This document shows positions 16,691 to 20,411 of a stretch of 44,423 nt of DNA, piece after piece; the stretch's first letter is position 1; the number at the start of each line of letters is the position of its first letter. This DNA is from Rhodanobacter sp. C06 (GTDB lineage Bacteria > Pseudomonadota > Gammaproteobacteria > Xanthomonadales > Rhodanobacteraceae). The notes below the pieces were generated by a model. It searched no databases, was not told where the DNA came from, and was given only the letters and a program-made list of their open reading frames with translations. Made by a program: the position numbers and the translations under genes. The DNA lies in NCBI RefSeq assembly GCF_002001105.1, contig NZ_MUNP01000072.1, positions 1-44,423 of the forward strand, given 5' to 3'.

Positions 16691-17449
16691 TCAGCGCCAG
16701 CCCGCCACGCGGGCCGCGCGCTCCTGCTGCGCATCGAACACATTGCCGCGCAAGCGGGCATCGATCGCGGCCTGCACCGCGGGCGTCAGGCCACTCGCCG
16801 CCTGGCGCAACTCGCCGGTTTCGGCCGGGACCGACGGCCCCAGCACGGGCAGCTCCCAGCCCGCCGTCGTGTGGCAGGCCAGCCCGGCGCGCACCGGCGG
16901 CGTGCGGACGGTGAAGCTGCGGCAGATGTGGCCGTCGGCGGCACGGAAAGTCAGGCCGATCGCGACCGGGGCCTGCGCATCCGGCTCGCTCGCCAATTCC
17001 CGGTCGAGCGCGCGCGCCAGCGTGCCCGTGGCGAACTGCCGGTCGCCCTGCGTGCGCACCAAACTGCTGCCGGACTGCCACCACCACAGGCCCGCGGCCA
17101 GCAACGCCACCGAGGCGGCCAGGGCGGCGCCCGGCATCAACCAGCGACGGGGCGCACGGTGGCTGGCGGGATGCGCGCCACGCCCACCCGCCACCACGCT
17201 GAACCGCGCGGCCGGTTTTGTCGCCGGCGCGGCCGGTGCCTGCAGCAAGGCGGACAGATGCGCGGGCACCGCCTCGTCGAGCACCGGATCGAATGCGGCC
17301 CGCAGTTGCGCATCCAGGGCGCACATCTGCCGCACGCGACGGGCCAGCGCGTCGTCCTGCGCCAGCACGGCCTCGACGCGCGCGGCTTCCGCGGCGTCGA
17401 GTTCGCCGTCCACGTAGGCTTGCAAGGTGTCGTCGTCGATCGTGTTCAT
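16691..17449 (-). CDS. Membrane-anchored anti-sigma factor
   Basis: A 252-residue protein that overlaps the upstream ECF sigma gene by 4 bases. The N-terminal part (DDDTLQAYVDGELDAAEAAR) is the usual short helical anti-sigma segment, without a H-x3-C-x2-C zinc motif. One membrane helix lies at about residues 103-124 (MPGAALAASVALLAAGLWWW). The remaining 125 residues would be periplasmic, with two cysteines (HICRSF and GLACHTT) that may form a disulfide or sense redox. The expected role is to hold the sigma factor at the membrane until a periplasmic signal releases it. The signal and any release protease are not known. Confidence 0.85.
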   Translation of the reverse strand: MNTIDDDTLQAYVDGELDAAEAARVEAVLAQDDALARRVRQMCALDAQLRAAFDPVLDEAVPAHLSALLQAPAAPATKPAARFSVVAGGRGAHPASHRAPRRWLMPGAALAASVALLAAGLWWWQSGSSLVRTQGDRQFATGTLARALDRELASEPDAQAPVAIGLTFRAADGHICRSFTVRTPPVRAGLACHTTAGWELPVLGPSVPAETGELRQAASGLTPAVQAAIDARLRGNVFDAQQERAARVAGWR

Positions 17450-17937
17450 GCGTCGTTCCCGAGTAGGGCCTGCAAGGTGCCGCGTGCGCGCGCCAGGCGG
17501 CTGGTGACGGTGCCCACCGGCACTTCCAGCAAGGCGGCGGCCTCGTCATAGGACAGGCCCTCGACCAGCACCAGCGCCACCACCTCGCGATGGTCCGGCG
17601 GCAGCGTCGCCAGCGCCTGCGCCAGTTCCAGCTGCTGCGCGGGCCGTGCCGCGCCAGCGTCGGCCACCGTCTCGCCGACTTCCTCCGGCGCGAACAGATG
17701 CTGTGCCCGGCCGCGCGCGCGCAGCTCGTCCCGCCAGGCGTTGCGCGCGATCGCGAACACCCACTTGTCCAGCGCGGCGTCCGGCCGCCACTGCGCGGAC
17801 CGGGCCAGCGCACGCTCCAGCACCACCTGCACCAGGTCGTCGGCATCGGCGACCTGACCGGCCAGCGCCCGCGCGAGGCGGCGCAGGCGTGGCAGCAGCG
17901 GGATCAGTCCTTCGCGCACGGCATCGCTCGAATGCAC
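17446..17937 (-). CDS. ECF (sigma-70 family) sigma factor
   Basis: A 163-residue ECF sigma factor. Region 2 covers LVQVVLERALARSAQW and ALDKWVFAIARNAWRDELR. Region 4 has LPPDHREVVALVLVEGLSYDEAAALLEVPVGTVTSRLARAR with the helix-turn-helix. The start is a GTG at 17937 with AAGGTG just upstream. The promoter-like motif at 17947-17978 places the start of transcription only some 6 bases before the GTG, so the message may be almost leaderless. The gene is divergent from the S8 protease and is followed by its anti-sigma factor. Confidence 0.93.
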   Translation of the reverse strand: MHSSDAVREGLIPLLPRLRRLARALAGQVADADDLVQVVLERALARSAQWRPDAALDKWVFAIARNAWRDELRARGRAQHLFAPEEVGETVADAGAARPAQQLELAQALATLPPDHREVVALVLVEGLSYDEAAALLEVPVGTVTSRLARARGTLQALLGNDA

Positions 17938-17946
17938 GCATCACCT

Positions 17947-17978
17947 TCCACTACGTCTGTCGGGGCCGATTCCTTCCC
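17947..17978 (-). promoter_or_regulatory. Predicted ECF promoter of the sigma gene
   Basis: On the minus strand: GGGAAGGA (-35, 17978-17971), 15 bases, then CGTAGTGGA (-10, 17955-17947). The same two blocks with the same spacing occur at 19343-19374. A GGAA-type -35 and CGT-type -10 are characteristic of ECF sigma factors, so autoregulation is likely. Confidence 0.7.
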
Positions 17979-18058
17979 TCGTGAGCAACGGCGCGGTTCG
18001 GGGGCGTAAAGCGCAGCAATGCTAGCATCCGGCCCCGTCGCTCCCGAGGTGCCCGGCG

Positions 18059-19315
18059 ATGCCCCTGCTCCGTAACCCCATGCTGTCCGTTCCACTGCTG
18101 GCCGTGCTGCTGGCACTGGTTGGCAACCCTCCCGCGCAAGCGCAGGTGCTGGGTCCGGTGCAGCGCAGCCTGCCGAGCCTGCCGCTGCCGGCCACGCCCC
18201 TGCCCGGCGCTCTGCCCGGCGTGAACCAGCAAGCTGTCGACCAGTTGCTGCGGCGACCGCTGGCCCTCGGCCTCAAGGTGCAGGTGGATGCGCTGCTGCG
18301 CAGGGAGCCCCGGCGCGTCACCGTCGACCCCAGCGGCGCGCCGATCCTGCGCGGCGAGTTTCTCGTCATGGGCTTGTCGGATGCGCAACTCGCCGCCGTG
18401 CAGGCGCAGGGCTTCACCGCGGATCGCGAGGCGGCGGCGGACGCGACGCTTGGACTGGATTTCATGGTCCTGCACGACAGCCGCGGACGCAGCACGCGCA
18501 AGGCCATGCGCATCCTGCAACAGGCCGCACCGGACGCCACGCTCACCTACCAGCATCTCTACCTGCCGGCGGGCGATGCCGGTGCGGTGCCCGCTGCCGG
18601 TTCGCCGCCGCCGGCATCCGCCCAGCCCATGCGCAGCGTGGGCATGGTCGACGGCGGCGTCGATCCGTCCGACCCCGCGCTGGCGCACGCGCGCATCGAG
18701 GACCACGGTTGCAGCACGCCGACGGCATCGCGGCACGGCACCGCCGTCGCCGCGCGCCTCGTCGCCGGCGATGCGGAAACCTTGTATGCCGCCGACCTGT
18801 GGTGCGCCGACCAGGTTGGCGGCGCCACCTCCCAGCTGGTGGATGCGCTCGCCTGGATGGATCGCGAACGCGTGGCGGTGATCAACATCAGCCTGGTCGG
18901 ACCCGACAACCCGGTGCTCGCGCGCGCGGTGCAGGTGATGCTCGCGCGTGGCCACGTGCTGGTCGCTGCCGCGGGCAACGACGGCCCCGCGGCGCCACCG
19001 CTGTTCCCGGCGACCTACCCGGGCGTGATCGGCGTCGGTGCCGTCGATGCGCGCGGCCGCGTACTGCCCGAGTCTCCCAGCGGCAAGCAGGTGGCCTTCT
19101 GCGCGCCGGGCGTGGTCGGCAGCGGTCGCGACGGCTTGCGTGGCACCTCGTTCGCAGCACCGATCGTGGCGCGCCACGCCGACCGGCTGCTGGATGCTCC
19201 CCGTCCCGGCGCGGCGGCGCAGGTGCTGCAGGGCCTGATCGGCGAAGCCCATCCGTCCGGCTTCGCGGGCCGCGATGCCCGCTGCGGTCATGGCGTGCTG
19301 TCGCCCGGAAGCTGA
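18059..19315 (+). CDS. Secreted S8-family (subtilisin-like) serine peptidase
   Basis: A 418-residue protein with a signal peptide (to about residue 28, ending PAQAQ) and a long N-terminal region with a Pro/Leu-rich stretch that may act as propeptide or anchor. The catalytic triad is complete: Asp198 in MVDGGVD, His226 in SRHGTAVAA and Ser364 in GTSFAAPIVA, with the oxyanion Asn307 in AAAGNDGP. Compared with classic subtilisins the catalytic domain is compact. It is divergent from the ECF sigma/anti-sigma pair, with 121 bases between. It might be a regulon member, or might act on the anti-sigma factor or the downstream secreted protein; none of this is shown. No copy of the shared ECF motif was seen directly before it. 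Confidence 0.9.
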   Translation: MPLLRNPMLSVPLLAVLLALVGNPPAQAQVLGPVQRSLPSLPLPATPLPGALPGVNQQAVDQLLRRPLALGLKVQVDALLRREPRRVTVDPSGAPILRGEFLVMGLSDAQLAAVQAQGFTADREAAADATLGLDFMVLHDSRGRSTRKAMRILQQAAPDATLTYQHLYLPAGDAGAVPAAGSPPPASAQPMRSVGMVDGGVDPSDPALAHARIEDHGCSTPTASRHGTAVAARLVAGDAETLYAADLWCADQVGGATSQLVDALAWMDRERVAVINISLVGPDNPVLARAVQVMLARGHVLVAAAGNDGPAAPPLFPATYPGVIGVGAVDARGRVLPESPSGKQVAFCAPGVVGSGRDGLRGTSFAAPIVARHADRLLDAPRPGAAAQVLQGLIGEAHPSGFAGRDARCGHGVLSPGS

Positions 19316-19342
19316 ACACCGAGCAACCGCGACCGGACGGCA

Positions 19343-19374
19343 GGGAAGGATGTTGCGACTCCGCGCGTAGTGGA
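19343..19374 (+). promoter_or_regulatory. Predicted ECF promoter of the Ala/Gly/Ser-rich protein
   Basis: GGGAAGGA (19343-19350), 15 bases, CGTAGTGGA (19366-19374). Both blocks and the spacing are identical to the site upstream of the sigma gene. The start of transcription would lie near 19380, giving a 5' leader of about 35 bases with GGGAGG at 19403-19408 before ATG 19416. Confidence 0.7.
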
Positions 19375-19415
19375 TCCCGGAAGCCGCGGATTCGCCGCCG
19401 GCGGGAGGCACCGAC

Positions 19416-20411
19416 ATGCGCAACAAGACTCTGAGCAACAAGACCCTCGGCATCGCCCTGTGCACCGGCGCGCTCGCCTTGGCCTCGGTGACCAGTGCAT
19501 ATGCCCAGCACCTGGGCGGAGGCCTCGTGGGTGGAATGGCCGGCCAACTCCACGCGACGATGGGCCAGGCGATGGGCCCGGTGAACGGCCAGATCGGCGG
19601 TTCCGCGCGGGGCATGGGCAATATCGGCAAGGGCGACATCGGCATGCCCGACATCAACCCGCGTGCCGCTCAACGCCGCGCCGAACGCCTGCGCCAGCGC
19701 GCCGCGTCGACCGCCACCACGGCGACGCACGCCGCGACCCAGGCCGCCGGCCAGTCGAGCGGCCAGGCAGCGGCCAGCGGCGCCGCCAATGCGGCCGGCG
19801 CCAGCGCCGTCAACGCCGGCCAGGCAGCGCTGGGCGGCAACGCCGGGCTGGGAACCTCCGCCACCGGCAGCCTCGATGGCGCCGCCGTGGGCGACGCCGC
19901 GAACGCCGCAGCCGGCCGTGCGCGTTCGGCCGTCTCGACGGCCAAACAGGGAACCGCTGACGCGCTGGATCGCACACGGAGCGCGGCCGGCAACGCCCGC
20001 ACGGTCGCCGGGAACGCCGTCCAGTCCGGCATCGGCAAGACCCGGCAGCTCGCCGCCGCCGGCACGTCCACCGCCCGCTCGCTGGGCTCGCAGGCTGCCG
20101 GCAAGGTGAAGGATGCGGCTTCTTCCGCCACGAGCGGTGCGGGCAGCCAGTTGGGCTCGATCAGCAACGCCGCCAACGGCAGTTCGTCCGCTGATGCCTC
20201 GGGCTCGGGCAGCGCCGGCGGCGCGTCAAACATCGCCTCGGGCACTGCTGCGAACGGCTTGAGCTCGACTACGAGCAACTCGGGCTCCGCTGCGAACGGC
20301 TCGGCCGGTGCCAGCGGCCACGCCGGCGCGAACGGTTCGGCCAGCAACAACGGCGTCTCGGCCTCGGCCCAGGTCGGCGGCAGCGCGAACGCGGATGCGC
20401 AAGGGCATTGA
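19416..20411 (+). CDS. Secreted Ala/Gly/Ser-rich low-complexity protein
   Basis: A 331-residue protein with a signal peptide ending near residue 30 (TSAYAQ). The mature chain is almost entirely Ala, Gly, Ser, Asn and Thr, with a basic patch (AAQRRAERLRQRAAS, about residues 84-98) and helix-like repeats such as ARSAVSTAKQGTADALDRTRSAAGNAR. The last third is Gly/Ser/Asn-rich and probably disordered. No family is recognised. The composition suggests a surface, matrix or adhesin-like role, or an envelope filler protein, but function cannot be assigned. GGGAGG precedes the start. It carries its own predicted ECF promoter and ends before a strong bidirectional terminator. Confidence 0.8.
   Translation: MRNKTLSNKTLGIALCTGALALASVTSAYAQHLGGGLVGGMAGQLHATMGQAMGPVNGQIGGSARGMGNIGKGDIGMPDINPRAAQRRAERLRQRAASTATTATHAATQAAGQSSGQAAASGAANAAGASAVNAGQAALGGNAGLGTSATGSLDGAAVGDAANAAAGRARSAVSTAKQGTADALDRTRSAAGNARTVAGNAVQSGIGKTRQLAAAGTSTARSLGSQAAGKVKDAASSATSGAGSQLGSISNAANGSSSADASGSGSAGGASNIASGTAANGLSSTTSNSGSAANGSAGASGHAGANGSASNNGVSASAQVGGSANADAQGH

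Follow-up and report, generated by a model that had tools for sequence, protein, structure and literature searches.

The locus studied here raises the question of whether two sites built from the same two blocks, one before an ECF sigma gene and the other before a gene for a secreted low-complexity protein, are promoters read by that same sigma factor, and what kind of regulatory unit they would serve. The initial annotation of the window (the whole stretch of 44,423 nucleotides that was analysed) had reported two such sites, and both were found exactly as described, at 17978..17947 (-) and 19343..19374 (+), each with 15 spacer bases unrelated to those of the other. From sequence evidence, we put the probability that the two sites are promoters read by the adjoining ECF sigma factor at roughly 0.8. 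The unit around them consists of four genes, encoding the ECF sigma factor, a probable membrane anti-sigma factor, a divergent secreted S8 peptidase and the secreted low-complexity protein, which we call the output. The genes and sites are:

16691..17449, minus strand: probable membrane anti-sigma factor, 252 aa, with family matches below curated cut-offs
17446..17937, minus strand: ECF sigma factor, 163 aa, with a GTG start 12 nt after the CGTAGT hexamer; a stop in frame shortly before the GTG rules out a longer start
17947..17978, minus strand: site 1, predicted ECF promoter of the sigma/anti-sigma operon (core 17977..17952), in 57/57 loci counted
18059..19315, plus strand: secreted S8 (subtilisin-like) peptidase, 418 aa, with D198, H226 and S364 present
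19343..19374, plus strand: site 2, predicted ECF promoter of the output gene (core 19344..19369), in 57/57 loci counted
19416..20411, plus strand: output gene, Ala/Gly/Ser-rich low-complexity protein, 331 aa, type A, with a signal-like N-terminus and no family

The sigma gene had been named correctly. Its product matches Sigma70_r2, Sigma70_r4_2 and TIGR02937 above their cut-offs and is short with no further domains, as in group IV (ECF) factors, and a likely membrane anti-sigma gene comes next, overlapping it. The sigma/anti-sigma operon is preceded by its own site 1 in every one of the 57 loci counted, which by sequence is the arrangement of an autoregulated module. The assignment of the 252-residue protein as a membrane anti-sigma is probable, and draws on matches below the cut-offs (zf-HC2, 21.3 bits against 22.2; NF052375, 38.8 against 100) and on a modest structural model (mean pLDDT 60.3, poor), with a three-helix N-terminal domain, a predicted membrane helix at residues 109-130 and an outer domain in which two cysteines are invariant in 13 sequences, a layout that agrees with a class I membrane anti-sigma. 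A fold search with this poor model gave no match at E ≤ 0.001, its weak matches being RslA (E 2.3, probability 0.82, 41 columns) and MucA (E 3.5). Elsewhere in the window, a glycine riboswitch aptamer at 2129-2229 (+; 64.8 bits) is the sole Rfam match.

To assess how rare the two-block pattern is, we searched for it in the window, in the genome and in related genomes. The full pattern GGGAAGGA-N15-CGTAGTGGA has two matches in the window, against a mean of 0.00 in 100 dinucleotide shuffles, and exactly two in the genome of 4,137,396 bases (82 contigs), where the reversed control has none. No further genome site appears at one or two mismatches; at up to three there are 10 matches, namely the two exact ones and 8 with exactly three mismatches, and since the reversed pattern gives 33, nothing beyond the two sites stands out. 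The relaxed 11-base core, GGAAGGA-N15-CGTA, likewise finds only the two module sites in the 4.14 Mb (reversed control, 3), so that the genome-wide search proposed in the initial annotation turned up no excess of random matches, and the predicted regulon looks like two promoters only. Across 13 genomes the core has 28 matches, 21 of them in the module and 7 outside it, and the reversed control has 51. Two of the 7 outside matches, both in genus g19, resemble each other, with nearly identical spacers (L163, G105:C1:1708200; L168, G018:C28:38359).

The comparison of orthologous loci, also proposed at the outset, showed both blocks conserved at both places. One scan of genome contigs was made and the best 80 sigma loci were kept, of which 30 (L011-L040) form a close set from Rhodanobacter, Dyella, Fulvimonas and less exactly named MAGs, with sigma proteins 80-91% identical; in the other 50 of the best 80 identity is at most 47%. 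All 30 close loci carry the anti-sigma and S8 genes and have both sites before the same two positions, and the output protein of the window was found by tblastn in 20 of them. Allowing up to three mismatches, site 2 is recovered in 30/30 and site 1 in 26/30, and the remaining four (L021, L030, L031, L034) retain the core of site 1. In 31 loci, these 30 and that of the window, site 1 shows no variation in either GGAAGGA or CGTA; at site 2 CGTA is likewise invariant, and GGAAGGA differs in a single sequence. Variation is seen in the leading G of GGGAAGGA, in the base after CGTA and at most spacer positions, although a few spacer positions of site 1 are invariant, which leaves that spacer partly conserved in close relatives. 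The blocks as first described were slightly over-read in their full letters, the near-invariant core being GGAAGGA-N15-CGTA. As there are only two copies, 1.4 kb apart, one might suspect coincidence or a recently duplicated segment. With 0.00 matches expected by chance, spacers and flanks of the two sites unrelated, and the blocks kept at both sites in two families, this explanation is refuted by conservation and is scarcely credible, in agreement with the original view that no segment had been duplicated.

The sites also occur together with the module. We searched 117 genomes of the family for the site, with one mismatch allowed, and for the anti-sigma protein, with a match defined as E below 1e-60. 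The anti-sigma has a match in 16 of the 117, and paired sites about 1.4 kb apart are present in 13 of these 16 genomes as against 0 of the 101 without it. Two of the exceptions (G003, G051) contain both sites with more changes, and in the third (G087) the anti-sigma gene lies at a contig end. Two genomes of the same genus that are without the module (G054, G106) have no core match. This bears on the idea that the blocks bind a separate transcription factor controlling both genes. Conservation alone does not name the reader of a site, and sequence cannot separate a promoter from an operator, but the sites are absent where the module is absent, site 1 lies directly before the ECF gene at a constant short distance from its start, and asymmetric GGAA and CGT blocks at a fixed spacing are a known rule for ECF promoters (PMC8103513). 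We consider a separate factor quite improbable, and conserved blocks, fixed spacing and a mostly free spacer in the orthologous loci back the reading of GGAA as the -35 and CGT as the -10 element of an ECF promoter.

We extended the comparison to a second family, probably Lysobacteraceae/Xanthomonadaceae. A profile of 13 anti-sigmas has matches in 38/299 genomes of the order (E ≤ 1e-6) and in 27/247 of the second family (E ≤ 1e-20). Stretches were taken from 26 of these 27 genomes, leaving out G366, with its gene at a contig start, and three were dropped before counting, two with no sigma or S8 match (L234, L235) and one at a contig end (L238). The 57 loci counted are the 23 usable loci of this family and 34 of the window's family; they come from related genomes, and the counts are not independent. 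In 23/23 usable loci of the second family GGA-N19-CGT stands both before sigma and after S8, with the -35 drifting mainly to GGAAGAA. Within fixed windows, the distance from GGA(A/T) to CGT has a spike at 18 nt in both families [first family, site 1 34/34, site 2 32/34; second family, site 1 22/23, site 2 21/23]. Other spacings from 10 to 26 are found in 0-4 loci, except for 14 in the first family (34 and 32), where the match falls inside the same motif, and the reversed pattern reaches at most 6/34. The five loci missed within these fixed windows are L028 and L038 (site further downstream), L196 (at +257) and L236 (GGAC) for site 2, and L233 (GGAC) for site 1.

If one sigma factor reads both sites, they would be expected to change together, and this is what we see in L200 (genome G003), where both -10 boxes are CGTC, and in L228, which has GGATGGAT as the -35 box of both. 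This does not hold throughout: L192-L194 and L231 have GGATGTTC at site 2 while site 1 keeps GGAAGAAA, and L223-L225 have CGTC at site 2 while site 1 stays CGTA. That site 2 drifts further than site 1 in these loci of the second family would suit a cell in which site 1 is read by this sigma and site 2 mainly by another ECF sigma. Such a division is very improbable in our view, given that the cores are alike at both sites in close relatives and that the pairs occur only with the module. The prediction that the sigma factor drives its own gene and the secreted low-complexity gene is thus supported by the conserved sites, and we infer that it is this sigma that recognizes them.

At greater distance only parts of the pattern are seen. 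Five more distant loci (L184-L188), with no S8 match in the stretch, keep GGAA-N18-CGT just upstream of sigma. In four Aureimonas-like loci (L046, L047, L049, L051), GGATGGA-N14-CGTAT lies a few bases before the ATG of a distant ECF gene, hinting at a near-leaderless, autoregulated sigma there as well. The other loci among L041-L051, which are 11 of the 50 distant loci, have no clear site by eye, and anti-sigma-like ORFs follow sigma, again by eye, in L042 and L047.

The gene behind site 2, which lies between the S8 stop codon and the output gene, is not always the same. The output protein of the window has no family in Pfam or NCBIfam. Assigning output types in the 57 loci by motif and by eye, we found type A (a signal peptide followed by an LGG-rich region) in 44/57 [26/34 in the first family, 18/23 in the second], including L191, L223-L225 and L230, left open by the script, and L026, mislabelled by it, all of which were assigned by eye. 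In 13/57 an unrelated-looking output stands behind the same promoter. Twelve of these loci (L021, L028, L031, L033, L035, L038, L039, L189, L196, L226, L227, L229) have type B, a protein that is likewise secreted and of low complexity and carries a G-x-GWG-x-(I/V)A motif, and L037 has a third, repetitive protein. A stub resembling the type A signal peptide remains between promoter and type B gene in L033, L035 and L039. With type B or another gene behind a kept site 2, the promoter seems to have outlived its gene in these lineages. We rejected type B as a family tied to this sigma, since copies occur elsewhere in 10/16 genomes searched, two of them without the module. Downstream of the output gene, on the opposite strand, is the gene for adenylosuccinate synthetase. 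In L234 and L235 (second family, genus g105), the gene right behind the one for adenylosuccinate synthetase encodes an anti-sigma relative; the 9.5-kb stretch contains neither a sigma nor an S8 match, and this relative looks like an orphan left after loss of the module.

The two predicted transcripts differ in their leaders. In 32/34 loci of the first family, 12-15 nt separate the CGTANN hexamer from the sigma GTG (9 in L031, 4 in L200), and seven loci have an additional in-frame start overlapping the end of the hexamer. In the second family, the first in-frame sigma start lies 2-7 nt past the hexamer in 17/23, with others at 10, 12 and 26; L223-L225 have an ATG that overlaps the hexamer, with the next start at 36. 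One paper worked with 3-6 nt from the end of the -10 to the transcription start for two ECF groups (PMC10880074); by that measure, the sigma mRNA of most loci would begin at the start codon or at most about 9 nt before it, and should be leaderless or nearly so. The leader of the output mRNA, by contrast, is longer and contains a GGAG-type ribosome-binding site, with a covarying hairpin before that site:

19383..19402, plus strand: leader hairpin, GCCGCGG...CCGCCGGC, just before the ribosome-binding GGGAGG

The pairing was read from the same alignments of leaders that had been built from sequence. Among the 23 leaders of the second family, 93.2% of 161 cells pair (0/500 shuffles), and both partners have changed in 11 cells (0/500), spread over 3 pairs (99/500) and with 6 further pair types (322/500). 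Among the 34 of the first family (33 distinct), 92.2% pair (1/500), and both partners have changed in 4 cells (3/500), all in 1 pair (289/500). In L021, L028, L031 and L038 the leader has a weak hairpin or none. A model made from the leaders of the second family finds the leader of the window as the best match in its genome (E 3.7e-5; next 0.008), and the module leader is also the best match in G022 and G018. Binding of CsrA/RsmA to the hairpin was considered and set aside, as the GGA of its consensus is lost in several leaders of the second family. Third and later matches of the model were inspected at six loci; at L258 (G022:C24:14030-14085) and L260 (G000:C3:25105-25160) the gene behind the match encodes another signal-bearing protein, with YVWAPGYW-like motifs, and similar 5' hairpins may precede other secreted-protein genes.

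The S8 peptidase gene is divergent from sigma, and its product has a signal-like N-terminus. D198, H226, S364 and N307 are kept in 55/55 S8 proteins, found in 55 of the 57 loci, in keeping with an Asp/His/Ser triad; the His and Ser motifs were part of the search query, so that only Asp198 and Asn307 are free tests. A short element precedes the gene:

18019..18028, plus strand: ATGCTAGCAT, a perfect palindrome before the S8 gene, in the window and in 21/21 related loci printed

These 21 belong to the 30 close loci, and the element may be an operator or serve a housekeeping promoter as its extended -10. A search allowing up to three mismatches found no copy of the two-block site before the S8 gene in the close loci, which, together with the conserved ATGCTAGCAT, suggests a promoter or operator of its own, and the peptidase is probably transcribed from its own promoter. 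Both observations would also fit a peptidase that has nothing to do with the circuit and merely lies between the two promoters. Against this, S8 stands beside sigma in 57/57 loci counted, a set chosen by requiring both genes, and the 2/26 stretches of the second family where S8 is missing (L234, L235) are also without sigma, a further stretch being cut by a contig end. We regard an unrelated peptidase as rather unlikely.

These results suggest how the unit might work. Free sigma (17937..17446) would transcribe its own sigma/anti-sigma operon, a positive feedback loop in which production of the anti-sigma keeps pace, and, as its one output gene, that of the secreted low-complexity protein at 19416. 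Until an envelope signal arrives, sigma would be kept inactive by the membrane anti-sigma, and its release would probably involve cleavage of the anti-sigma's outer domain by a protease; for other systems it is established that membrane anti-sigmas are proteolysed stepwise. The S8 peptidase may cut the anti-sigma or mature the output protein. Put together, this would be a self-contained envelope circuit in two families of one order, in which sigma drives only itself and one matrix-like secreted protein, a subtilase frees sigma or matures the output, a leaderless sigma mRNA and a hairpin-led output mRNA take different translation routes, and the output was exchanged for an unrelated secreted protein while the promoter stayed. 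With all its parts taken jointly, we hold this picture to be possible rather than probable. What began as a pattern seen by eye is now a very small, well-supported regulon with a named output, and the whole circuit can be tested. It opens a way into secreted low-complexity proteins for which the libraries searched contain no matching family, and the near-leaderless transcript of a sigma factor set against the hairpin-led transcript of its target is a directly testable contrast. Among the papers listed in our literature searches we saw none on an ECF module with an S8 peptidase in this order, which is not proof of its being unpublished.

Several known systems resemble parts of this unit. The best NCBIfam matches of the S8 peptidase are the QhpE and mycosin subtilases, with scores (78.8 and 70.3 bits) far below their cut-offs (165 and 278.75). 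In the alphaproteobacterial general stress system EcfG/NepR/PhyR, PhyR_sigma2 is matched by the sigma2 domain found here, and NepR by 27 residues of the anti-sigma (21.2 bits against a cut-off of 25.7). NepR, however, is small and soluble, whereas the partner here has 252 residues and is a predicted membrane protein, and canonical EcfG promoters carry CGTT (PMC8103513) as against CGTA here. The unit also resembles the class of autoregulated ECF factors with a co-transcribed membrane anti-sigma, with which it shares a sigma of Sigma2 and sigma4 domains only, an adjacent probable anti-sigma, predicted autoregulation and a predicted promoter of GGAA/CGT type. RpoE-RseA, AlgU-MucA and SigL-RslA are examples of that class. 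Such pairs are common and already known, with autoregulation given for about 55% of ECFs in a review (PMC8103513). Unlike that class, the present unit has an apparent two-promoter regulon, one secreted low-complexity output and a divergent S8 peptidase, and it departs further in the letters GGAAGGA and CGTA and in its very short sigma leader. What seems new is the dedicated two-promoter regulon with a secreted output, its conservation despite exchange of the output gene, and the contrast between the two leaders.
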